A DNA stretch of 64,000 nucleotides. Source: Halobaculum gomorrense. GTDB taxonomy: Archaea > Halobacteriota > Halobacteria > Halobacteriales > Haloferacaceae. Made by a program: the position numbers and the translations under genes. The stretch lies in NCBI RefSeq assembly GCF_900129775.1, contig NZ_FQWV01000002.1, positions 310,001-374,000 on the forward strand. The letters are read 5' to 3'. Positions within the stretch are counted from its first letter, which is position 1, and every line of letters begins with the position of its first letter. Under the pieces are notes generated by a model. The model was not told the DNA's origin, ran no database searches, and saw nothing but the letters and a program-made list of their open reading frames with translations. Positions 1,156-29,231 of the stretch are shown here, one piece after another.

Positions 1156-1944
1156 CTACGCAGTCTCCGGGTCGAAGTTCATCAGCAGATTCTCACGCGC
1201 CACTTTCGTGCTTCCTGAAACGCCGTTTCCGAGGAATCGCTTCTCGTCGCGACCGACGAGGTGGAGTCCGTCGACGTTCTCCGGGAGTTCGTCATACGAG
1301 CAGATGCATCGACCGTCGAGCGTTTTGATCTGCTGGACGAGCTCCTCGTGGTCGATATCGGAAACTGGGTACGCGTCTTCTGACCCGACGTACGGCGGAT
1401 CGCAGTAGAACACCGTCTCCGGCTGGTCGTACTTGTCGAACACCTCGCTCCAGTCGAGCGACTCGACGACGACGTCCTCGAATCGCTCGGCGAACTCGTG
1501 GAGCCGGTCGACCTTGTTCGAGTAGCTGAGCGCCTGGTTGCTGACCTTGCTCGTTCCGAACCCACCCGGGTCGCTGCACTTCGCCCCGAACTGCGAGTAG
1601 CGGAGGTAGAAGAACCGTCCTGCTCGCTCGACGTCGTCGAGGGGGCGGTACCCGCGGAAGAACAGTTCTGCCCACCGACCGTGGATCTCACGCGAGTACG
1701 GGACTGCTTCGAGCCACTCGACCAGCTCCGCTCGCTGCTCGCGTAGGGTTTCGAAGAAGTGGACGAGGTCGCCGTCCTTGTCGTTGTAGACCTCGACGGT
1801 ACTCGTGCTCGGATCCTTGTTCACGAGGACGCCGGCGGCGCCGCCGAACACGGTAACGAAGCACTCGTGCTCTGGGACATGACTGAGGATCCACGAGGCG
1901 AATCGGGACTTTCCACCAGGGTACGGGAAAACCGCATCCGGCAT
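1156..1944 (-). CDS. D12-class adenine-N6 DNA methyltransferase
   Basis: This enzyme transfers a methyl group from S-adenosylmethionine to adenine N6 in DNA (Dam/DpnM type). The SAM-binding motif FPYPGGK is at residues 6-12, the VFGGAAGVL block at 32-40 and the catalytic DPPY at 182-185. The length, 262 residues, is normal for the family. I start at ATG 1944 because the conserved N-terminal motif begins six residues later; an upstream extension to 2223 is open but unlike any methylase. No endonuclease gene is next to it, so it looks like an orphan methylase that protects the element or marks its DNA. It is one of several methylases in the element. Confidence 0.88.
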   Translation of the reverse strand: MPDAVFPYPGGKSRFASWILSHVPEHECFVTVFGGAAGVLVNKDPSTSTVEVYNDKDGDLVHFFETLREQRAELVEWLEAVPYSREIHGRWAELFFRGYRPLDDVERAGRFFYLRYSQFGAKCSDPGGFGTSKVSNQALSYSNKVDRLHEFAERFEDVVVESLDWSEVFDKYDQPETVFYCDPPYVGSEDAYPVSDIDHEELVQQIKTLDGRCICSYDELPENVDGLHLVGRDEKRFLGNGVSGSTKVARENLLMNFDPETA

Positions 1945-2253
1945 CACGCGCACCTCGCTATCGAATCGGTAGCTGTGCTTGCGCTTTGGATTTCGTTGCC
2001 CCGTTGTCGTCGGCCACGTAGTGCCATACTCAGAGCCGCCCGACGCCCAAGGAAAGCAGTGAGCCTTGGGCGGAGTCAAAGTGAACGTGAGCGACTTCAA
2101 TGGTGTGTGGTGGGGAACACCTCCTTGGAGGGAACCTCGAGGATCGGGGTTCTGGTACGACCGCACCGCGATCGCCCCGGAGATCACCCGATCCTCGAAA
2201 CTGAACACTGACTCACCGCGCAAGCGACGCGCCGGTGTTCAGTTCGGCGTGAT
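1945..2253. other. Intergenic region with inverted repeat and repeat copy 3
   Basis: I see no convincing gene in these 309 bases. They hold copy 3 of the upstream repeat (2061-2085) and a perfect 9-bp inverted repeat: ACTGAACAC at 2200-2208 pairs with GTGTTCAGT at 2235-2243. The inverted repeat lies just after the stop of the winged-helix gene and could end the int-wHTH transcript. The remainder is upstream region for the methylase. Confidence 0.4.
2061..2085. repeat. Copy 3 of the repeated upstream sequence (diverged)
   Basis: The plus strand reads GAGCCTTGGGCG followed by GAGTCAAAGTGAA. It aligns with copies 1 and 2 with a few substitutions. It lies 117-141 bases upstream of the methylase start at 1944, further away than the other copies are from their genes. 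Confidence 0.35.
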
Positions 2254-15556: not shown

Positions 15557-15740
15557 TCAAACCCGTGGACCAGCACGCTGGTTGCTTTTTATCCCGGTGG
15601 CGCGGTCCGGGGCCGCGGCGGCCGCGCGGCGGCCGATCGGCGATAACTGGCAGAAATCGGATGTCAGGCACACGCGCGTTTCAGGAGACGAGGGTACAAC
15701 CGGGGGGGAGGCTGAATCGGGTGTGGAGGTGGTCGCGTGA
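15549..15740 (+). CDS. 63-residue bridging ORF before the giant surface protein
   Basis: ATG 15549 lies inside the ATPase gene end, and the TGA at 15738-15740 overlaps the GTG start of the next gene. Residues 11-27 are moderately hydrophobic (ARWLLFIPVARSGAAAA), the rest polar. It may be a small protein or only a coupling bridge; without it there would be a 180-base gap in the overlap chain. Confidence 0.45.
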   Translation: MTDQTRGPARWLLFIPVARSGAAAAARRPIGDNWQKSDVRHTRVSGDEGTTGGEAESGVEVVA

Positions 15741-18700
15741 ACCGCGACGACGTGCCGCTCGACGAAGGCCAGGTGAAGATCGTCGGCCTGATCGCGGCGT
15801 TGGTGGTCTCGGCGGCGCTCGGGCCGATGCTGTTCATGCCGTCGCCGGACGCGCCGGATCGCGCAGCGAACGCCTCAAGCGGGACGGTCGTGACGCCGAC
15901 TCCCGCGCCTGCGGACACCGGCGACAGTGGCGGCCTCGAAGAACTGTCGACCGGTCGCTCACCGCCTGACGACCTCTCGCGGCTGGGCAACGTGCCGAAG
16001 TCGCACACGCAAGCCGGCGAGCAGGTGCCGACCCCGCCGGTCGCGGCGTCGGCAGGCGCTCAGACGCTGCGGGTCGAGGCGACGGTCGTCGACGGCGAAC
16101 CCGCGCTGAACCTCACCGACACGCGCAACCACGACGGCCGGTGGGTGTCGGTGCCGACCGCGTGGTTCGAGCAGGTGTACGGGACCGTTCCTGAGGTCGC
16201 GCGCATCGCGAACAGCGAGTCGGGCGCGGTGTACACGGAGCCGGTGACAATCCGCGGCGGACAGGCGGTGTTCTGGACGCGCGGGTACTCGACGAACACG
16301 GTCACGTTCGGCGGGGAACTGCTGATCAGCGACGATCCCGCCGTCGACGGAACGACCCACACGTACGACATCACGAACCTGGCGAGCGCGTCGGAGCCGA
16401 CAGGCACGCTGACAGGCGTGGTGAATACGGAGACGGAGTCGCACTCGGGCACCGGACTGGCGACGAACGATGTGCTCGGGCTGTCGGTGGCGGGGAACCT
16501 CGCCCCGTCGAACGCGGAAGTGACGTTTGAGGGCCGCGCGACGACGTTCGGCGAGGTGCGCGAGGGCTACGATGTGGCCTCGGGCTCGACGACGAGCGTG
16601 TCAGTCGCAGGCGACACGGCGCCGGTGAACGCGACGGTCACGTTCTACGGGAGCGGCTCATCGAGCAGCAACACGATCTCGGCGACGACGGTCGGCGACG
16701 GCCACCAGCAGTCGTTCGACGTGGAGGGGTCGCTGTCGCCGTCGGGCGAGTCGGTCGTGTTCCGCGGGGTGACGCAAACGGGCTCGACGTACACGCCCAG
16801 CGGGACGGGCGACGGCTCGATCACGGTTAACGGGAACGTAGCGCCGTACGGGCCGGCGAGCGGGTCGGAGCCGTCGATCCAGTTCACGGGTCGTGAGACG
16901 ACGACCGCGCGGACGGTGAGCGTGACAAGTGTAAGCGACGGATCGACCACGTCGTTCACAATCGACGGGAACCTCGCGCCGACCGGCGAGTCTGTGACGT
17001 TCTCGGGAGAGACAACAACCTCAAGCGGGGATCAATCGTGGTCGGGCGTCGGAGACGGGCAGATCCTCAGCGTCTCAAACCCCGGGAATATCGAACCGAC
17101 CGGTCCGGTGAGTTCCGAACCGGAGGTAGTGGTAACGGCACCTCAGAATAGACAGCCATTGTACGACCTCGGGGACGGAACGACCGAAGCGGATGGTTTC
17201 GTCTTCTATACGGGATACACCGAAGATTCTCAACACACTTTCGACGTGTCGACAACCGAGACGCTGTATTCGTTCACGGTTCCGGGGGTTGACAGCCTAT
17301 CGAGTAGCTGTTCGGCGACGGTGTGGGTCAATACCGGCGATCTCGCCGACTCAACACCGATGGAGGGGACGAAACAAGGAACGTGGAATGTCGGGACAAA
17401 CCCAACGTATGTGTTCCCGTCTCCGATCGACGTTTCCTCGGTGTCGACCGTCACGATCGAATTGGGGGAGTCGACGTGTAGCTATCGAGGTGCGCAAGAC
17501 GACAGCGCCTCGTCCGCGTATTTCGCAACTACGGGGACGAAAGTCAATTCCTACTCGAACGCGATAATCAATCCTTCCCCAAGTTCGGTGATTGTTACCG
17601 CAGATACAGGTCAGACGGCCGACTTTGGGGCCGTCTCCGCTGGCACTTCCGAGTCGGAAGGGATCGATCTATCCGCGTCGACATTATCCCTCACCGTGCA
17701 AACGTCGACCGGGGTGGACATCGTCTTAACAAAAACTGATCGGACCGCGACAGAGGATCCAAGCATCGACGTAGACGGCGACGGCACCGCCGAAGCGTCG
17801 GTATCGGGGATCCTCACGGAAGGACAGACGGTGACTGACTCGTCAGTCGACGTATCGACAGGGTCGCACACGGCGACGACAACCACGAACACCGGATCTA
17901 TCGTCTCGTGGGACTTCTCGTTCGACGAGCGCACGGCCACACAGAACCCGGCCGTCGACGTGACTGGCGACGGCACGACGGACGCGAGCTACTCGGGGAT
18001 CCTCACCGGCGGCGAGTCGGTCACGGTGCCGCTGTCTGCGCTGTCGAGCGGCTCGACGACACTCGACACGTCGACGGCGGTCGGGCCGCAACCGTCGTGG
18101 ACGGTCACCTACGACGCGCGGATCGCAACCGAAGATCCGTCACTCGCACTCGACGGCACGACGATCGCGAGCCATTCGGGCATCCTCGCGGACGGCGAGA
18201 CGGTGACGCTTACGAACTTCGACGTGTCGACGGGGTCACACACGCTGACGCTGTCGACGGCGGGCGGGTCGGTGACGAGCTACGACCTGTCGCTGACGAA
18301 CAACTCTGGCTCGAAGAACCCGCAGATCGACATCGGCGGCGACGGGTCGACGGACGCGATCTACGACGGGACGCTGCAGTCGGGTGAGACTGCGACTGTC
18401 TCCCTGCCGGGGCTCTCCGTCGGGTCGAACACGCTGGTGTTCGGCGGGAGTGGATCGGCGTACGACTACCGGATCGAGTTCGAGCGCGTCGAGCACGCCG
18501 AGACACCGTCGATCGACGTGACCGGCGACGGCACACCGGATGCACAGTACAACGGGACGCTGGCGCCGGGCGAGTCGGCGACCGTGTCGCTGGCGAATCT
18601 GTCCACGTCCTCAAGCGCGGCAGTCGTCTCGGTCGCGGACGGCGGCCGCGTCGACGCGACGCTCACGTTCACCGAGCGGACCGGTAGCGCGGGCGCCGGG

Positions 18701-20359
18701 CTGACGCTGAACGACGCGACGAACACAACCTCGGGTGTCCTCACGGCCGCCGAGACGCGGACGGTGACGTTCAACGTCTCGTCCGCGCTCGTGGAGGGGA
18801 CGAACTCGCTGACGGTCGAGCTGGCCGACGAGGCACTGTCGGCGGACGCGCCGCAGATGTCGGTGGACGTAGAGTACGGCCACGAGATGACCGAGCGGAA
18901 GTCGGTCTCGTATCAAGCGGAGGGTCTCTCCGAGCGGTACAACGTCTCGTTCACGACGAGCGCGTATCGCAACGAGACGACGCTGACGATCGACCACGCG
19001 GAGACGGTCGTGTCGATGCGCTCGCTCGATTATCGCATCAACGAGTCGGGCGGCTGGGCTGCCGTCCCAGACGGGAACTACACGCTGACCGGCACCGAGC
19101 TGACGATCGACGCGGACGCGCTCACGCCGACGAGCGGCGTGCCGGAGGACACGACCATCGAGATCCGGTCGGTCGCCTCGAAGGTGCGAGCGCACAACGC
19201 CGAGATCACGGTGACGCGCACGACCGACATCGGGAGCGACCTGAACTCTCGCGTCCGGTTCGACACGTGGGGCTCGTCGTCGTGGCTGGGCGTGTCCAAC
19301 ACGTCCGAGGGCCAACTGCTCCACTACGCGGTCAACGAGTCGTACTCGGACGAGTCCGAGTACGCTGAGATCGACGGCGGCGGTGCCCAACGGCTGTACT
19401 TCCCGTACGCGAGCACGGGGAGCGAGGTCACACTGCGGACGCTCCCGGTGGCGCTGGGCGTCGATCACAACACCGTCGAGGTGACAGTCCCCGAATCGAT
19501 CGCCAACGCGTCGAGCCCGCTGTTCTACCTACGCCCGGGGAGCGTAACGGGCGACCCGGTGACCGTCGAGTACGTCGGCGCCGACAGCGGCGTGTGGTAC
19601 GGCGTCTTCGACGAGTCCGAGTCAGCGCGCCTCGACCGCGCGGAAGGTGGAGCGACGATGACGATCCCACGCGACGACGTGGGGCTGGTCGCCGTTCGCG
19701 AGAGCGTTGCGCCGGCGAAGGACACGAGCGGCGTCGGCGGTGGGATCTTCGCGGCGGTCCGCGGCGGGAACCTGCTCTCGCTGCTCGTGCTGTTTGGCGG
19801 CGTCGCCGGGCTCGTGATCGCCGGCCGGGCACCGAGTCGGGCACGGGCGAGCGTCGACGGCCTTGCGGGCGCGCTTGGCGGCTTAGTCGGGCGCATCCCT
19901 CGCGTCGGTGACACACTCGGCGACCTCGTCGAGCGCGGCGTCGAGACGGCTGGCAACGCCTATGTGAGCGTCGGGTCGAACAACCTGTTGACGGCGGCCG
20001 TCGGCGGTGCCGTGCTCGTGTCGGCGCTGCAGGTCGGCCTGATCGACCTGGGCGCGGAGACGGCGGCGATGCTGGGCCTCGCGGGGATCGCGGTCGCGAC
20101 GCTGGTGCTACTCCGACAGTTCGACGCGTTCTCGCCGGGGCGGTGGATCGGCATCGTCGCGGTGTCGGCCGTGATCGCGCTGCAGGGCCTGGGCGAGGGC
20201 GACCTGCTGACGGCGCTGGTGAACTCGGATGCGTTCATCCTCGTGGTGTTGATCCTCGGGTACGCTGTGTACTCGCTGGTCCAAGAGTACCGCGCGAACA
20301 ACAACCCGAACGACGACCGGCCGCAGATCGTCATCGACGCGGGTGGTGACAACCAGTGA
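15737..20359 (+). CDS. Giant repeat-rich surface protein, 1540 aa
   Basis: An N-terminal anchor (residues 14-34) is followed by a Thr/Ser/Pro-rich linker (35-100) and a very large outer region rich in Asn-X-Ser/Thr sites. Two repeat arrays are visible. About six units of roughly 40 residues built on GNLAPSGESVTFxG span about 245-455. About six units of 60-70 residues built on DPSIDVDGDGT, SGILTxGET and VSTGSHT span about 670-1050. Between them (about 458-668) lies a non-repeat domain encoded by AT-richer DNA. Residues 1330-1520 form about six membrane helices. The start is GTG 15737. It is probably the main spike, adhesin or vesicle-surface component of the element. Confidence 0.78.
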   Translation: MNRDDVPLDEGQVKIVGLIAALVVSAALGPMLFMPSPDAPDRAANASSGTVVTPTPAPADTGDSGGLEELSTGRSPPDDLSRLGNVPKSHTQAGEQVPTPPVAASAGAQTLRVEATVVDGEPALNLTDTRNHDGRWVSVPTAWFEQVYGTVPEVARIANSESGAVYTEPVTIRGGQAVFWTRGYSTNTVTFGGELLISDDPAVDGTTHTYDITNLASASEPTGTLTGVVNTETESHSGTGLATNDVLGLSVAGNLAPSNAEVTFEGRATTFGEVREGYDVASGSTTSVSVAGDTAPVNATVTFYGSGSSSSNTISATTVGDGHQQSFDVEGSLSPSGESVVFRGVTQTGSTYTPSGTGDGSITVNGNVAPYGPASGSEPSIQFTGRETTTARTVSVTSVSDGSTTSFTIDGNLAPTGESVTFSGETTTSSGDQSWSGVGDGQILSVSNPGNIEPTGPVSSEPEVVVTAPQNRQPLYDLGDGTTEADGFVFYTGYTEDSQHTFDVSTTETLYSFTVPGVDSLSSSCSATVWVNTGDLADSTPMEGTKQGTWNVGTNPTYVFPSPIDVSSVSTVTIELGESTCSYRGAQDDSASSAYFATTGTKVNSYSNAIINPSPSSVIVTADTGQTADFGAVSAGTSESEGIDLSASTLSLTVQTSTGVDIVLTKTDRTATEDPSIDVDGDGTAEASVSGILTEGQTVTDSSVDVSTGSHTATTTTNTGSIVSWDFSFDERTATQNPAVDVTGDGTTDASYSGILTGGESVTVPLSALSSGSTTLDTSTAVGPQPSWTVTYDARIATEDPSLALDGTTIASHSGILADGETVTLTNFDVSTGSHTLTLSTAGGSVTSYDLSLTNNSGSKNPQIDIGGDGSTDAIYDGTLQSGETATVSLPGLSVGSNTLVFGGSGSAYDYRIEFERVEHAETPSIDVTGDGTPDAQYNGTLAPGESATVSLANLSTSSSAAVVSVADGGRVDATLTFTERTGSAGAGLTLNDATNTTSGVLTAAETRTVTFNVSSALVEGTNSLTVELADEALSADAPQMSVDVEYGHEMTERKSVSYQAEGLSERYNVSFTTSAYRNETTLTIDHAETVVSMRSLDYRINESGGWAAVPDGNYTLTGTELTIDADALTPTSGVPEDTTIEIRSVASKVRAHNAEITVTRTTDIGSDLNSRVRFDTWGSSSWLGVSNTSEGQLLHYAVNESYSDESEYAEIDGGGAQRLYFPYASTGSEVTLRTLPVALGVDHNTVEVTVPESIANASSPLFYLRPGSVTGDPVTVEYVGADSGVWYGVFDESESARLDRAEGGATMTIPRDDVGLVAVRESVAPAKDTSGVGGGIFAAVRGGNLLSLLVLFGGVAGLVIAGRAPSRARASVDGLAGALGGLVGRIPRVGDTLGDLVERGVETAGNAYVSVGSNNLLTAAVGGAVLVSALQVGLIDLGAETAAMLGLAGIAVATLVLLRQFDAFSPGRWIGIVAVSAVIALQGLGEGDLLTALVNSDAFILVVLILGYAVYSLVQEYRANNNPNDDRPQIVIDAGGDNQ

Positions 20360-20941: not shown

Positions 20942-21757
20942 TCAGGGATACGTGTAGCGGTCGACGACATCGCCGTCGGCATCGACCAGCGTCGCCGTAT
21001 CGCCGCCGTTGTTCCAGATCGCGGTTTCGGAGCCCCAGTACAACTCGGTTGCCGTGTCCTCCCCGGAACCGGTGTAGATGTACAGTTGCTCGCCGTCCGA
21101 GAGTGTTACGCCGTCGGGGATCGTGTAGGTGTGGCCTGCCTCGTCGGAGAGTTGCCATCCTGAGAGGTCAACCGTCGGCCCTTCGTGTTCGATGACGACG
21201 TACTCGCCGTTCGGGTTCTCGTTGTCGTTCCCGTCGGCGTCGGCGTGGATGAACGCGATCTTCGTCTCCGGTTCCGGAGTCGGTGTTGCGGTTGGCGTCG
21301 CTGTTGGCGTTGGTGTTGCCGTCGGCGTTGGCACAGCGGTCGGTGGCGGCGTCGGAGATTCAGTAGGGGTCACCGTCGACCGGAGCGGTTCCGCCGTCTC
21401 AGGAATTGGTGTTGCCGTAGCCACCGGGACGTCGGATGTGTCCTCTGATCCAGCGTCCGAAGGTGCTGGTGGGAGTAGGTAGGACCCAGAGAGAAACAGC
21501 AGGAGGAAAACGATCGCCATCACCGGACCGCGCAGTTTCTCTTCGTCAGCACGGGGATTTCTGTCGAGCGACCAGATGTACTTGCGGACTGGGTTGAGGA
21601 GGACTCCTCCGGCGGCGACGAACAAGAGGCCGCCGACGATACCCCGCAATCCATCACCGAAGCGAGCGACGCCCCCCAGAACGAGCACCACCGCAAACGC
21701 CCACCGTGCCAATCTAAGTTTCCGACCCATTGGGTTCAGATACCACCCAAATGTCAT
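20942..21757 (-). CDS. Membrane protein with surface-exposed lamin-tail domain, 271 aa
   Basis: Three N-terminal membrane segments (about residues 15-30, 35-55 and 78-96) precede a Pro/Thr-rich linker (about 110-165, made of TPTPTAT units). The C-terminal 105 residues read as a lamin-tail (LTD) domain: GEYVVIEHEG, VDLSGWQLSDEAGHTYTIPD and GDTATLVDADGDVVDRY. LTD domains are small beta-sandwiches, usually on secreted nucleases or surface proteins; here no nuclease is attached. An ATG at 21730 is an alternative start. The gene stands opposite to the long operon, between a dead and a live copy of one HTH gene. Confidence 0.75.
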   Translation of the reverse strand: MTFGWYLNPMGRKLRLARWAFAVVLVLGGVARFGDGLRGIVGGLLFVAAGGVLLNPVRKYIWSLDRNPRADEEKLRGPVMAIVFLLLFLSGSYLLPPAPSDAGSEDTSDVPVATATPIPETAEPLRSTVTPTESPTPPPTAVPTPTATPTPTATPTATPTPEPETKIAFIHADADGNDNENPNGEYVVIEHEGPTVDLSGWQLSDEAGHTYTIPDGVTLSDGEQLYIYTGSGEDTATELYWGSETAIWNNGGDTATLVDADGDVVDRYTYP

Positions 21758-22643: not shown

Positions 22644-24632
22644 TCAGCCGGGGATCTCGAACTCGGGGCGCGCGTGCTCCTCGATGTCGATGTCGAAGCC
22701 GGCGATCTCGACGGCGGTCTGGATCTGTTCGGCGGACCACGTCGAGCCAGCGCGGATCATCCTCCGCACGTCCTCGACGGTCTCGTACACGTCCTGTCCC
22801 TCGAAGGTGCGCGCGAGGCGCTCGACGGCCTCCGAGCGGGCCTGCTGGGCGTCGTGCTGTAGCAGCGTGTTCGCCTCGGCGACGCGCTCGTTGCCGTAGT
22901 CGTCGTCCCAGCGGACGCGACCGGGGAAGTGACCGGGCGCGTTCCCCGAGTCCTTCCAGGCGCGGAACCCGTCCTGCACGACCTCGGCGGCGTTGACGGC
23001 GCTGGCGACACCTTCGTCGGGATGCGGGAGACACGAACCGAGCTGCAGTTCGGCACCGTCGTCAGCGACGCGGGCGCCCCACTTCTCGCGCCAGGACTCG
23101 AACACGTCGCCGGAGGGTCGCTCGTACGCGTCTGCTTCGAGGATCGACTCGGTGTGACGGAGACTGTGCTCGACGCTCGTTTTCACGTCGGTGACGGTAC
23201 GCCCGATGATCTCCTCGAACTTCTCGCGGAGGTGCTGAGAGGCGAACGTGATCGTCCCCTGCTGGGACTCGACGGCGTCGCCCATCCGCTTGAGCCACCG
23301 GTACACGGTGGTCTCACTCGTTTCGCTCTCCTCGGCGAGGTCGTCGTAGTGAGCGCGGCCGCCGTCGGAGACGAGCTGCTCGGTGAGCGACTCGTCGGCG
23401 GGCGTCATGCGAGAGAACGCCCGCACGAGCATCGACTCCTGCGAGCGCTCGATCTGCGGCGTCGGGTCGTCGTGTAGGTCGAGATCGCGCGGCGTCTCCG
23501 CTGGCGAGAAGTGCCAGTCCTCGACGAACGTCGACGCGCTGTCGTTCGAAGATCCGAGTGAACTCGGCGCGATCGGGACGCCGGCCCAGGTGAGGATGTT
23601 GACGAGGCGTTCTTCGAGCTCCTCGACGAGCGCGTGCCGACGGTCCCATGCGACGGTCTCGCGGTTGATGCGGATGTCGGACATTTTCCGCTGAAACAGT
23701 AGCCCGAACTTTGGGTGGTACAGCGGGTCGTCGGGGTCGGAGTGCTTGTGCTCGGGGTCGTAGCACTTCGCCTGCGTGCCGAGTCCGTGACTGGGGATCA
23801 TCGACGACGCGGCGTCGGCGTGAGAGACGAGGCGGAACATGGCGCCGCCGTTCTCACCGTTGTCCCAGAAGTACGCACCCTTCGAGGTGTCCTGCGTCGA
23901 CAGCAGCATCGCGAGCTGGTGGAGGGCACCACCCATCCGCGTGAGCTTCTCACCGAGCGACCGCGAGAGCCGCACGTATCGCTCGTGGACGGAGACGTTA
24001 CTCGTCGACAGCGGGCGCGTGAAGTACTCGCTCGACCAGTCGTCATCGAGCGCGTTCGCGAGCGCCTGGCAGGCGCACCGGAGCCAGTGCGGGTACTCGT
24101 CGAGTTCGAGATTTGAGCCCTGAATATTGACGTTGAATCCGGTGTCGGGCTGGTCCGCGTGGTCGAACGGCGACGAGATCGCGGCCCCGGTCTCGACGTG
24201 TGTCATGCCGGCGAAGCGTGGCCGGACGTGGAAGTGCGCCGACCGCTCGCCGGCACCCTCGACCTGAATCCGGGGCTGCCACATGGGCTTGTCCTGCGGG
24301 AGATCGAACTCTGCCCGGGGCGCGATCTTCCCCGCGTGGTTGCCGTCGTCGTCGGTGCCGTAGTACAGCGAGACCTCGACGGACTCGCGCGAGTCGTCGT
24401 CGGCCGGGTCGGCCTCGGAAACCGGGTGCGGCTCGACGCCGTCGAGCCACGGGAACCGCGCGTCGAAGGACGTGCCGCCGTCGAACGCGCGGATGAACCG
24501 ACAGAGTGCCCAGTACGGCGCCATGTTGTCGGCGAGTGAGCCCTGCGTCGCGTAGTTCAGGTTGATGCGAGCCTCGTGAGGGCACGTCCGGATGATCCCC
24601 GCGTCGGGGTTCTGGCGCGTCGCCACGCTCAC
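22644..24632 (-). CDS. Large haloarchaeal DUF7845-like protein with winged helix
   Basis: A 662-residue soluble protein starting with GTG 24632, which overlaps the stop of the upstream zinc-ribbon gene. The N-terminal half begins CPHEARINLNYATQGSL and continues APYWALCRFIRAFDGG, a beginning I associate with the haloarchaeal DUF7845 proteins found in viruses and integrated elements. A winged-helix region lies at about 430-500 (HYDDLAEESETSETTVYRWL). The rest is helical. Proteins like this are often annotated as MarR-type regulators, but a role in replication or DNA handling is equally possible. It is the last gene of the minus operon and is followed by the hairpin cluster. Confidence 0.6.
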   Translation of the reverse strand: MSVATRQNPDAGIIRTCPHEARINLNYATQGSLADNMAPYWALCRFIRAFDGGTSFDARFPWLDGVEPHPVSEADPADDDSRESVEVSLYYGTDDDGNHAGKIAPRAEFDLPQDKPMWQPRIQVEGAGERSAHFHVRPRFAGMTHVETGAAISSPFDHADQPDTGFNVNIQGSNLELDEYPHWLRCACQALANALDDDWSSEYFTRPLSTSNVSVHERYVRLSRSLGEKLTRMGGALHQLAMLLSTQDTSKGAYFWDNGENGGAMFRLVSHADAASSMIPSHGLGTQAKCYDPEHKHSDPDDPLYHPKFGLLFQRKMSDIRINRETVAWDRRHALVEELEERLVNILTWAGVPIAPSSLGSSNDSASTFVEDWHFSPAETPRDLDLHDDPTPQIERSQESMLVRAFSRMTPADESLTEQLVSDGGRAHYDDLAEESETSETTVYRWLKRMGDAVESQQGTITFASQHLREKFEEIIGRTVTDVKTSVEHSLRHTESILEADAYERPSGDVFESWREKWGARVADDGAELQLGSCLPHPDEGVASAVNAAEVVQDGFRAWKDSGNAPGHFPGRVRWDDDYGNERVAEANTLLQHDAQQARSEAVERLARTFEGQDVYETVEDVRRMIRAGSTWSAEQIQTAVEIAGFDIDIEEHARPEFEIPG

Positions 24633-24754
24633 ACACCTCCGTCGTCGCCGAGGAGCCGCCGACAGGACGGACACGCGTCGACGCCGGCAGCAGTACGTTC
24701 GACGCCGTCGACGGCACCACAGCCGCGACAGACGCCTTCACGGTCGCTCACCAT
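24629..24754 (-). CDS. 41-residue zinc-ribbon protein
   Basis: Starts at ATG 24754 inside the end of the upstream gene and ends overlapping the GTG of the next. It carries CRGCG (residues 8-12) and CPSC (28-31), a C-x2-C pair on each side of a short loop, so it should bind one zinc ion. Such mini-ribbons are common in haloarchaeal operons of viruses and plasmids. Function is unknown. Confidence 0.6.
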   Translation of the reverse strand: MVSDREGVCRGCGAVDGVERTAAGVDACPSCRRLLGDDGGV

Positions 24755-24990
24755 TGGGCCACCCCGTCAACGCGTGCGAGCCCGTGCGGACGGGCCTCGA
24801 CGACCTCGGCCTCCGTCCACGTCGACGGGACGCGGTCGACATCGCCGGAGCGGACCTCGTGGCGTACGTCGGTCCCAACGTCCTCGATCGCGGCGACGAC
24901 GACGCGGTGCTCGACGACGGCGCCGCGCAGGTCGTAGCTCGTGTACGGCGACTCGGACCACTCGGCGATCACGAGTTCGTCGGGGCTCAC
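24748..24990 (-). CDS. Small beta-rich protein, 80 aa
   Basis: Starts with GTG 24990, overlapping the stop of the methylase fusion, and overlaps the mini zinc-ribbon at its end. It is acidic and strand-rich (ELVIAEWSE, YDLRGAVVEHRVVVAAIEDV), without membrane segment or known motif. Its place between methylase and zinc-ribbon genes in a fully overlapping operon is the only clue to its job. Confidence 0.55.
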   Translation of the reverse strand: MSPDELVIAEWSESPYTSYDLRGAVVEHRVVVAAIEDVGTDVRHEVRSGDVDRVPSTWTEAEVVEARPHGLARVDGVAQW

Positions 24991-26666
24991 CGCTGCTCAC
25001 CTCCGCTGGCGGCCAGCCGCTGCTGCTCGGTCTCGCGGTGGATGTGGTCGGCCCGGAAGACGGTCGCGCGGCGCGAGAGCACGTCGAGGACCGACCCGGG
25101 AACGTCGCCGAAGACGAAGACGTGGGAGGCGAACGGTGCGCTCTCGTCACCGTCTCCGAACGCGAGTCGCGAGTCGAGCATCGCGACGGCGTCGGCGTGC
25201 TCAACGGCTAACTGCCACCAGTCGGTACTGCTGTCACCCTTCACGAGATAGCAGATCGACTCGACCGCGGGACGCTGTAGCTCGGAGACGACCTTCGGCG
25301 TCCACTCGTCCATCGCGGAGTACGGCGGGTTCAGCCACACGTCGCCGTGCCACGGCTGGGCGAGTCCGTCGTCCTCCTCGGTGAACGCCTCGTCGGCGAT
25401 CGGAGAGCGCTCGGCGCCGGCAGCGGCGTCGAGGTCGAATCCGTCGACAGCCTCGGCCAGCGGACGGACGAACTCGGGCGGCGTCGACCACTCGTCGGTC
25501 TCCGAGCTGGTGAACGGATCGAGGACGTGGCGATCGTCGCCGTCGCCGTCGTCTCCGTCCGTGGGAACATCGACGAGCGTCGGATCGAACTCCGTTCCTC
25601 CGTCGGTGACGAGCCGGTGCTGTGTCTTCCGGTCGACGACGAGAACCACGTCGGGCTTTTGAACTCGCTGGAACAGGTGAACCGACTCGCGCTCAAAAGC
25701 GTCGTTCGCTTGGAGCCCTACGCTATTCCATCCGATGGACAGCACCCGACCCCCCGGCGCCGTGAGCTCGGCGAGAGTGGCGCGCGCCTTCCAGATACCG
25801 CCGGAGGGTCCGCGTCCGATCGTGTTTCCGTTGTAGTGCTCTTCCGCCTGTTCGGAGTCGAACGGCGGATCGAAGACGATCGTGTCGAACGACTCAGCCG
25901 ACAGGTGTTCTTCGAGTTCCCGAACGTCGTGATGAGAATCCGCGTCGCGGCCGACGTCGAGGTCGTTACGGTGGACCTCGCCGTCGTGGTTGAGCTTCGT
26001 CTTCCCGGCGCACGCATTGAGAACGCGGCCCGAGAGCATCGACTCGACGACACGGCGAACCTGCGGCGCCTGGAACGTCCACGGGCCGAGCGCGATCGGC
26101 GTGCCGTCCGGGTGCTTCCCGCCGATCGTGTGGAGCGCGAACGGATACTGTCGGCCGTGCCGAAGACCCAGCTCGTCTTTACCACCGTCGGTGATCAGCG
26201 TTGACTGCTCGGTGTTCGCGGAGTCGACGCGATCGCCGAGCCACGACATCTGCTCGCCGATCCCCCCCAGATCCAACTCCTGGAAGGGGAAGGTGACGAC
26301 GGGGTCGATCCCAGCGTGGAACGTCTCGCGGCCCCGGAGCGGGTCGACGTATGAGCGCCCTGCGAGCACGACGATCTCGTCGCCGGCCTCGGTGACGCCG
26401 AGCCACTCGATCAGTTCCATCCCGATGCGGTGCGCCAGCTCGTCGAGCGCGTCGCCGTCGAGGTCGTCGATGTGGGTCTCGTAGGGATCGAGTTCGGCGT
26501 CGGGCTCGACGAGGCCGTGCTCGGCCGAGAGGATCGCCCACTCGTCGCCGACGGTCTCGGCGTACTCGCGCTTCTTCGCGAAGTACGTCGACGTGTACAG
26601 ATCGCGGGCCTCGGAGCGCTCGTCGCGCTTCGCGGCGCCGCAGCCGACAAGGACGTACTTAGTCAT
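24987..26666 (-). CDS. DUF6884-like / methyltransferase / Dam-type triple fusion, 559 aa
   Basis: Three parts are visible. Residues 1-125 (YVLVGCGAAKRD, ARDLYTSTYFAKKREYAE, WAILSAEHGLVEPD) match DUF6884-type proteins. Residues 195-355 form a Rossmann methyltransferase-like domain with RVLNACAGKTKL (motif I position) and IVFDPPF (264-269). Residues 390-559 match phage-type DNA adenine methylases (Dam family): EWSTPPEF and catalytic NPPY (446-449). I start at ATG 26666, which overlaps the C5-methylase stop. The protein should modify DNA, probably adenine, and the first domain may act on the same or another base. Two methylase centres in one chain are unusual. Confidence 0.75.
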   Translation of the reverse strand: MTKYVLVGCGAAKRDERSEARDLYTSTYFAKKREYAETVGDEWAILSAEHGLVEPDAELDPYETHIDDLDGDALDELAHRIGMELIEWLGVTEAGDEIVVLAGRSYVDPLRGRETFHAGIDPVVTFPFQELDLGGIGEQMSWLGDRVDSANTEQSTLITDGGKDELGLRHGRQYPFALHTIGGKHPDGTPIALGPWTFQAPQVRRVVESMLSGRVLNACAGKTKLNHDGEVHRNDLDVGRDADSHHDVRELEEHLSAESFDTIVFDPPFDSEQAEEHYNGNTIGRGPSGGIWKARATLAELTAPGGRVLSIGWNSVGLQANDAFERESVHLFQRVQKPDVVLVVDRKTQHRLVTDGGTEFDPTLVDVPTDGDDGDGDDRHVLDPFTSSETDEWSTPPEFVRPLAEAVDGFDLDAAAGAERSPIADEAFTEEDDGLAQPWHGDVWLNPPYSAMDEWTPKVVSELQRPAVESICYLVKGDSSTDWWQLAVEHADAVAMLDSRLAFGDGDESAPFASHVFVFGDVPGSVLDVLSRRATVFRADHIHRETEQQRLAASGGEQR

Positions 26667-28140
26667 CCGACGGCACCTCCTGCTCGCCGAACGTCGCCAG
26701 CGACGGAGCATCGCCGGTGAGCGCTTCGTTGACGAGTGCCCGTGCGAGATTCACCGGGACGGCGTTCCCGATCTGAGCCGTCCGCGACGCCTTCGTGTCG
26801 CCGACGAACTCGTAGTCCGCGGGGAATCCCTGTGATGCGGCGAGTTCCCGCGGCTGCAGCATCCGGTAGCGGAGCCCGAGCCCGAGTGGCGAGAGGTCGG
26901 GAACGCACAGGGCGTGCCGGTCCTTCGTCGTGACCGTTGGGAGTGGCTCGTCGACGGGCGCGGAGTCGCTGTTGCCGTAGTACTCGACGAGGAACGGCGA
27001 GATGAGGTGGCCGTCGTGGTTGCTCGCCGTCACCGTGTGCAGCGGCCGGTCGTTGGCGACGTACGTCGCGTTCGTGTGTAGGCCACCGCGCGGCAGGTTT
27101 CGCGGCTTCACGAACGGCTGCGCCTCGATGAAGTGGACGGCGCCCCGCGTCGCGATCGTCGGCACCGGCTCGCGGTCGGCGTCGAGCGCCCGCGCATTCG
27201 ACTGCTGACCCATCACCATGCGCGTGCCGCCGTCGACGGCGGCGGTCCCGGTCGATGAAACGAGGAACGGTTCGTCGCGATCGGCGAGCGCGTCTTCAAG
27301 ATCGTCGACCGGAACGATATCGTCCTGCAGCCGCTCGATGTCGGCCGGCACGAGGTCGGCGACGACATCAGCGTACGCCGCCACCTCCTCGCTGCAGTGG
27401 TCGCGGAGTCCCTGCGCGATCCGCTGCATGGTATTGTTCGAGAGCGGCCGCGAACGCGTCCAGATCGAGGAACCGCGATCGGTCCAGTCGATGATCTCCG
27501 CGGCGGGCCGCCACGGAGCACGGTCGTCGTCGGGAGCCGGAGCGCGAGCGTGCGTCGGCTCGGGATGCGTGGCGCGGTGACCGCGGCGCGCGACGACGAA
27601 CAACCGCCGGCGAGAAGTCGCGTCACCGTAGTCGGCCGCGTTCAGCACGTCGTGGCTGACCGAGTAGCCGAGCGAGTGGATCACGTCGACCCACGCCTCG
27701 AACGTCTCGCCGTTGCGGGTCGGTCGGCCGTCGTCGTCGATCGGTCCCCAACTACGGAGTTCGGGGACGTTCTCGACGAGGACAGCGTCGGGCTGCGTCT
27801 TCTGGATCCAGTCGACGACGTGCCACGGACTCGCCCGGCGCTGCTCGGAGACGGGTTTCCCGCCGCGCGCCGAGGAGAAGTGCGTACACTCGGGGCCGGC
27901 GACGAGCAGGTCCACGTCGTCGCCGCCGACGACGGCCGGCGGGTGCAGCTCCTCAACCTTCGCGTTGTGATGCTCGGCCCAGGGGTGGTTCCGCTTGTGT
28001 GTCGCGATCGCGTCGTCGTCGTGGTTGACCGCGATCAGACGCACGTCGTAACCGAGATCCTCGCACTCCAGCGCGAGGCCGTGGCTGAATCCACCCGCGC
28101 CACAGAACAGGTCGATCGCGGTGAGAGGTGCGTCGCTCAC
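26659..28140 (-). CDS. C5-cytosine DNA methyltransferase with atypical motif IV
   Basis: A 493-residue Dcm-type enzyme. Motif I is DLFCGAGGFS (10-19), motif VI VLVENVPE (120-127), and motif X QIGNAVPVNLAR is near the C-terminus. Motif IV, normally GxPCQxFS, reads AGPECTHFSSARGG (81-94), so the catalytic Cys (C85) is kept but preceded by Glu and followed by Thr-His. Related versions occur in phage and haloarchaeal element enzymes. It starts with GTG 28140, overlapping the gene before, and its end overlaps the triple fusion. No restriction nuclease accompanies it, so protection against host restriction is the likely use. Confidence 0.88.
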   Translation of the reverse strand: MSDAPLTAIDLFCGAGGFSHGLALECEDLGYDVRLIAVNHDDDAIATHKRNHPWAEHHNAKVEELHPPAVVGGDDVDLLVAGPECTHFSSARGGKPVSEQRRASPWHVVDWIQKTQPDAVLVENVPELRSWGPIDDDGRPTRNGETFEAWVDVIHSLGYSVSHDVLNAADYGDATSRRRLFVVARRGHRATHPEPTHARAPAPDDDRAPWRPAAEIIDWTDRGSSIWTRSRPLSNNTMQRIAQGLRDHCSEEVAAYADVVADLVPADIERLQDDIVPVDDLEDALADRDEPFLVSSTGTAAVDGGTRMVMGQQSNARALDADREPVPTIATRGAVHFIEAQPFVKPRNLPRGGLHTNATYVANDRPLHTVTASNHDGHLISPFLVEYYGNSDSAPVDEPLPTVTTKDRHALCVPDLSPLGLGLRYRMLQPRELAASQGFPADYEFVGDTKASRTAQIGNAVPVNLARALVNEALTGDAPSLATFGEQEVPSDD

Positions 28141-28514
28141 CGCGACTCACCTCCCTCGAAGTCAGCGGTCCAGGCGAGTTCGGCGACGGCGTACTCAACG
28201 GCACCGGGTTCGATCCCAACGAGCCGCCGTTCGAGCGCGGTCTCGAAGGACTCACGCCCGCCGACACGCCGCACGAGTTCAGCGTAGTACGGGCCCTCGA
28301 TCGTAGCAAGCGGGGCGACACTGGTGATCTCGATGAACCACTCAAACTCGGCGTCGCGAAGCCCGACTTCGGTGCGGGTGTCGTCGCACATCGGCTCGTT
28401 GCGCTCGAAGCCGTCGGGGATCTCGAACGAGGGAATCGGGTGGCTGTCCTCGCGAGCAGCCTCACGAAGTTCACGACCGACGCCGACCGGCATGATCTCG
28501 GCGCTGCCACTCAC
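28137..28514 (-). CDS. Hypothetical protein, 125 aa
   Basis: Starts with GTG 28514, overlapping the zinc-ribbon gene before it, and ends overlapping the C5 methylase. The protein is acidic and soluble with alternating strands and helices (FEWFIEITSVAPLATI, GPYYAELVRRVGGRE). No motif or family is recognised. Operon context with methylases is the only functional hint. Confidence 0.58.
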   Translation of the reverse strand: MSGSAEIMPVGVGRELREAAREDSHPIPSFEIPDGFERNEPMCDDTRTEVGLRDAEFEWFIEITSVAPLATIEGPYYAELVRRVGGRESFETALERRLVGIEPGAVEYAVAELAWTADFEGGESR

Positions 28515-29160: not shown

Positions 29161-29231
29161 TGGGACCGCCGAGATTCGAACTCAGGTCCTACGGACCCCA
29201 TCCGCAGAGGATACCACTACCCTACGGTCCC
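29161..29231 (-). tRNA. tRNA-Pro (anticodon GGG)
   Basis: The minus strand folds as a 71-base tRNA without intron. Acceptor stem GGGACCG pairs with CGGTCCC and the discriminator base is A. The anticodon stem TGCGG/CCGTA closes the loop ATGGGGT, giving anticodon GGG (Pro, codon CCC). T stem CTGAG/CTCGG carries the loop TTCGAAT, and the D loop contains AGTGG. CCA is not encoded. The 3' end borders the accessory element, so this is the presumed integration site, with the gene kept intact. Upstream (about 29250-29256) CGTTTTTACC on the minus strand is a plausible TATA region. Confidence 0.95.

Follow-up and report, generated by a model that had tools for sequence, protein, structure and literature searches.

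The open reading frame described here is probably the product of a recent fusion, within a provirus-like element, of three operon genes into one gene for a three-domain DNA-modification protein whose domains act separately. The fusion is real, young and so far single, and it joins three known viral modules: the parts are known, the joining alone is unusual, and the combination is new. From sequence comparisons we have high confidence in the fusion history and good confidence that the two predicted methyltransferase modules methylate; our confidence is low for the exact targets of these two modules and for the role of the third.

Architecture of the fused open reading frame

The frame lies in the window, the whole 64,000-nucleotide stretch of Halobaculum gomorrense DNA that was analysed. 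It runs uninterrupted from an ATG start on the minus strand (26666..24987), encodes 559 amino acids and holds three complete modules head to tail: a DUF6884 domain, a small SAM methyltransferase (the middle module, MID) and a Dam domain. A sequence-only reading of this DNA had reported a 559-residue frame at 24987-26666; the frame is real, but its strand needs correcting to minus. Its modules and joints are as follows.

26181..26666, minus strand: module 1, DUF6884 (PF21818), residues 1-162; CxxxK at C9 and K13, LSAxxG at 46-51
26181..26192, minus strand: joint 1, TDGG, residues 159-162 (ACCGACGGTGGT); the DUF6884 of same-genus genome G340 stops here
25596..26180, minus strand: module 2, MID, small class I SAM methyltransferase, residues 163-357; PHROG 11619
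25596..25607, minus strand: joint 2, TDGG, residues 354-357 (ACCGACGGAGGA); free-standing MID proteins end nearby
24987..25514, minus strand: module 3, phage Dam-type N6-adenine methyltransferase (PF05869, Pfam) with NPPY, residues ~385-559

Pfam DUF6884 matched residues 5-143 above its cut-off (110.8 bits versus 30; E 7.4e-32), bearing out the DUF6884-like start that had been proposed for the chain. The CxxxK (C9, K13) and LSAxxG (LSAEHG) motifs were intact and varied little or not at all across 15 relatives, in which C9, K13, Y24, S26, Y28, S47, Y62, G103 and Y106 were invariant. In a full-length structural model this module reached a pLDDT of ~90.

MID matched no Pfam family above its cut-off; residues 176-353 matched PHROG 11619, labelled 'DNA methyltransferase', over profile positions 3-180 of 186 (E 1.5e-67). 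Its motif I (LNACAGKT), motif II (RND) and motif IV (DPPF) recurred in 18 haloarchaeal or haloviral relatives as motif I, RND and DPPF/Y, with the N, C, A, G, T, RND and DPP columns invariant or nearly so. An AlphaFold2 model of MID (17 sequences) had a mean pLDDT of 77 and a pTM of 0.76 and matched 112 PDB chains at Foldseek E <= 0.001; the best fold matches listed were SAM methyltransferases at Z 12-13. The model supports a class I Rossmann, SAM-binding fold, as had been predicted for the middle domain, so the lack of such a fold that the sequence-only reading named as counter-evidence was not found.

The Dam family (PF05869) matched residues 388-509 (76.5 bits versus a cut-off of 28.1; E 2.5e-21). 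The module scored below the equivalog cut-off of TIGR01712 phage_N6A_met (61.9 versus 97.05 bits) and matched the PADLOC orphan MTase profile (E 7.8e-15). It probably makes N6-methyladenine. Owing to a shallow alignment, it was modelled poorly in the full-length model, whose informative parts are modules 1 and 2 and the linkers. The DPPF of the middle domain and the NPPY of the Dam domain were both present, with DPP and NPP cores invariant in their families, and the claim of two separate SAM-methyltransferase centres in one chain held up.

Free-standing homologues exist for every module at 67-90% protein identity. Aligned against the three sets of separate homologues, the fusion was collinear with them, and the modules were matched over essentially their whole length. 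Between fusion and free-standing homologues, dN/dS was 0.11-0.31 for all three modules, a ratio that mixes time before and after the fusion; each module was therefore under constraint, and by this measure purifying selection acts on each. With the homologues, these ratios argue that the frame is no chance ORF. Sequence profiles of the whole chain, MID, DUF6884 and Dam found no significant PDB relatives; matches to alpha-lytic protease and Tse15 were taken as chance.

Joints between the modules

Both joints carry the residues TDGG; after joint 2 comes an acidic linker that reaches about residue 385. The linkers (residues 159-170 and 351-398) had pLDDT <50 in the full-length model, as expected of flexible connectors. 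Many genes of these operons end in ...DGGEQR* or ...DGGDGR*, and the DNA of such ends (GAC GGA GGT GA..) also contains the GGAGGTGA ribosome-binding site of the next, overlapping gene. Of 190 genes abutting their downstream neighbour, 19 had DGG within the last 8 residues, where 0.8% would be expected (P 5e-15, a value that is only indicative because gene calls were simple and related loci were counted separately). The simplest reading of these sequences is that the joints are relics of a gene end and ribosome-binding site. Fusions would then arise by stop loss at overlapping junctions, with the old ribosome-binding site turned into a linker.

Near either joint there was no in-frame ATG, GTG or TTG; the only candidate was ATG210, inside MID. 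Re-initiation into separate products is therefore unlikely, and we rejected separate products from internal starts.

Similar tags were seen in other composites. A TDGG-type tag lies inside a zinc-ribbon/Dam protein in genome G094, and a 601-aa protein of G295, with MID between zinc-ribbon-like stretches, has the same DGG tag inside. Mosaic proteins of haloarchaeal elements carry TDGG or RADGG tags at apparent module boundaries (L042:7234-9039, 601 aa; L041:9479-10351; L038:8554-9510; L032:9047-9721), as if former gene ends with their ribosome-binding sites had become linkers.

The surrounding element

The fusion sits in an operon-like minus-strand run of zinc-ribbon proteins, a 125-aa ORF, a C5 methyltransferase, the fusion, an 80-aa ORF and a DUF7845/HTH regulator. 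The C5 methyltransferase gene overlaps the fusion start by 8 nt, and the 80-aa ORF downstream has a 4-nt overlap with the fusion. Profile scans gave no match at all for the 125-aa ORF (28137-28514), and no endonuclease family was matched among the neighbours scanned with Pfam, PHROG and other profiles. The principal features of the region are listed here.

26659..28140, minus strand: C5-cytosine DNA methyltransferase, 493 aa, upstream of the fusion (PF00145, E 1.7e-43)
22644..24674, minus strand: DUF7845/HTH transcriptional regulator, downstream of the fusion (PF25227, E 1.6e-84; PHROG 3288, E 2.5e-99)
1156-2223, minus strand: D12-class N6-adenine methyltransferase
15737-20359, plus strand: 1540-aa protein, unmatched in Pfam and PHROG
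20942-21757, minus strand: 271-aa protein, matching a PHROG tail protein and carrying a lamin tail domain (PF00932) at its C-terminus
29161-29231, minus strand: tRNA-Pro(ggg), between the element and chromosomal truB/kinase-like genes

An integrase domain and an MCM-type helicase are encoded in the wider region along with the 1540-aa surface-type protein, and on these grounds the region resembles a provirus or an integrated haloarchaeal element. The tRNA-Pro(ggg) gene is its likely integration site; a search of the window and of the 40 kb to its left gave no direct repeat of the tRNA 3' end. Homologues of the 1540-aa protein in two same-genus loci (L033 and L034) are 1045 and 1322 aa long, which suggests that the element encodes here a structural or surface protein of variable form. 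The 271-aa lamin tail domain protein adjoins structural-type genes of the element.

Within about 27 kb lie four distinct methyltransferase domains: D12, C5, MID and Dam. Self-methylation against host restriction has been proposed for haloviruses generally (PMC8651126), and four such domains in one region fit protection of this kind. The element showed no depletion of GATC: its 9.6 per kb falls within the 6.5-11.0 per kb reported for Dam-bearing haloviruses (PMC8651126). GATC is a reasonable guess for the target of the Dam module, given the haloviral precedent and an element without GATC avoidance; the inference is weak because the host stretch shows no GATC depletion either.

Separate genes in relatives

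No second copy of the full-length fusion was found in phages or plasmids by tblastn, in IMG/VR or GTDB contigs by single-query pattern scans (which are weak for distant relatives), or in 391 genomes of the class and 170 of the family. The fusion was found in one genome only; it is not the conserved feature that the sequence-only reading had thought worth looking for, and a conserved fusion family was rejected. With no second member to compare, the dN/dS values speak for the modules and not for the fused state as such.

The modules were found as separate genes in relatives. In the same-genus genome G145, a DUF6884 gene (224 aa, 83% identical) is followed by a Dam gene (183 aa, 90% identical) with a 4-nt overlap, and the same DUF7845/HTH regulator (91% identical) lies downstream of the split genes. 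In the G145 DUF6884, the TDGG is followed by a cysteine-rich tail that resembles a zinc ribbon. In G340, a 95% identical C5 enzyme is followed by a 163-aa DUF6884 gene whose stop lies at joint 1. In G043, from another family of the same order, a DUF6884 gene overlaps the MID gene that comes next, an arrangement that matches the fusion. MID is free-standing in G075 and G039 (about 70-74% identity) and was absent from G145, G138 and G340. Since all three parts are free-standing there and occur without one another, neither methyltransferase depends on DUF6884 in these relatives.

The DUF6884 module and alternative explanations

To our knowledge, DpdC is the only base-modifying relative of DUF6884. 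The substrate of DpdC is a 7-deazaguanine that DpdA inserts into DNA. A preprint assigns DUF6884 to DpdC (PMC11888242) and cites work in which, by its account, DpdC was needed for 7-amido-7-deazaguanine in DNA. The CxxxK and LSAxxG motifs have been named for the DUF6884 family, with YaaA and YfjM as relatives and possible DNA binding (PMC11701544); the tie to the YaaA superfamily (alpha/beta 'cantaloupe' fold) rests on that paper. In our profile search with DUF6884, YaaA 5caj reached E 0.79 only. A VIA fold search of the full model listed no YaaA, its effective comparison being of residues 183-351, with the methyltransferase domain filling the results. Among PADLOC profiles, the module matched PDC-M57A (E 1.2e-23); the match to DpdC was weak and short (residues 13-75 against positions 48-110 of 312; E 7.8e-5) and did not extend along the full DpdC length. 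C5 or D12 methyltransferases made up 4 of the 72 neighbours of 21 DUF6884 genes in relatives; the Dam gene of G145 and the MID gene of G043 are further such neighbours. DUF6884 sits beside methyltransferases only sometimes, which gives no evidence for an obligate joint reaction.

These data bear on whether the chain is a composite hypermodification enzyme, in which DUF6884 would take further a base already marked by a methyltransferase, or several domains would work in turn on a single base. The intact CxxxK/LSAxxG site, the weak DpdC match (E 8e-5), the preprint's placement of DUF6884 in DpdC with the requirement for 7-amido-7-deazaguanine that it cites (PMC11888242), and a DUF6884 gene adjoining DpdA in virus HRTV-29 would suit such chemistry. 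However, DUF6884 occurs without either methyltransferase and they without it, the C5 or D12 neighbours are just those 4 of 72, the fusion is not conserved, and the genome showed no DpdA. Its only TGT-family matches were two proteins, encoded by frames of 541 and 600 aa with 0.8 kb between them, that look like the tRNA enzymes arcTGT and ArcS, and an HRTV-29 DpdA query, in a search run without a positive control, found nothing. With no DpdA found, a DpdC-like role is unsupported in this genome, and we rejected a 7-deazaguanine pathway with DUF6884 as DpdC. We consider composite hypermodification very unlikely. The earlier suggestion of a step beyond plain methylation lacks support from a fusion confined to one genome, with parts separate in relatives and no DpdA found. 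That DUF6884 modifies the product of a linked methyltransferase, or a base positioned by the methyltransferases, to give a DNA modification undescribed in archaeal viruses has a slighter chance still. In G340, two extra TGT-family proteins (G340:C1:1283450-1286481), possibly DpdA-like, were seen beyond the two found in all genomes searched.

The target of MID admits another reading. Its best fold matches included tRNA or rRNA enzymes (Trm11, TrmN, Trm14, MnmM, RsmH; Z about 12-13) together with small-molecule enzymes at tied Z, and its roughly 195 residues hold no evident target-recognition domain. On the model, an RNA target is possible, and MID might methylate amino groups of tRNA or rRNA while being tethered to domains directed at DNA. 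But unrelated class I methyltransferases tie in Z, so the fold cannot decide between DNA and RNA; the family is present in haloviruses, and its PHROGs label is DNA methyltransferase. We regard this reading as rather unlikely. Occurrence in one genome only would also fit an accidental, non-functional fusion with neutral joints and at least one decaying domain; against this, all motifs are intact, there is no frameshift or stop, and the dN/dS values speak for constraint, although they mix periods before and after the fusion and so leave recent decay a small chance. A non-functional fusion is distinctly unlikely.

Proposed function

Under the favoured reading of a recent fusion with separately acting domains, the 559-aa frame would yield one polypeptide. 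Its Dam module would methylate adenine N6, probably in GATC, and so shield element DNA from host restriction. MID would be another SAM-dependent enzyme that methylates amino groups (N6-adenine or N4-cytosine), with a target of its own. DUF6884, as a member of the YaaA/DpdC superfamily, would bind or process DNA separately and would have joined the chain because its gene already stood in that operon. The domains are probably like beads on a string, tied for co-expression and not for one multistep reaction.

The fusion is a Rosetta-stone hint that haloviral DUF6884 belongs to DNA modification or restriction avoidance. The joints hint at a possible origin of composites, in which adjacent virus genes fuse where a gene tail overlaps the next ribosome-binding site and leave 'TDGG' behind. 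Neither hint makes the fusion a new kind of system.

Comparison with known systems

With the DUF6884/YaaA superfamily and DpdC, the chain shares the DUF6884 domain, CxxxK/LSAxxG and a weak DpdC profile match; it differs from the dpd 7-deazaguanine system in that no DpdA partner was found in the genome and DUF6884 is fused to two methyltransferases. The G145 element has the same module order and the same downstream regulator, with modules 83% and 90% identical, but is without MID, and its genes overlap by 4 nt instead of fusing. MID belongs to the same family as gp13 of Halorubrum pleomorphic virus 12, an AdoMet-MTase of PHROG 11619 type, at 42% identity; gp13 is a free-standing 189-aa gene, whereas MID is part of a fusion. 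M.phiCh1-I is a haloviral Dam-type methyltransferase of GATC (Baranyi et al. 2000, as cited in PMC8651126). Likened by enzyme type, it and the present module are both Dam-type N6-adenine methyltransferases of a haloarchaeal virus or virus-like element; unlike M.phiCh1-I, Dam here forms the C-terminal third of a three-domain chain.
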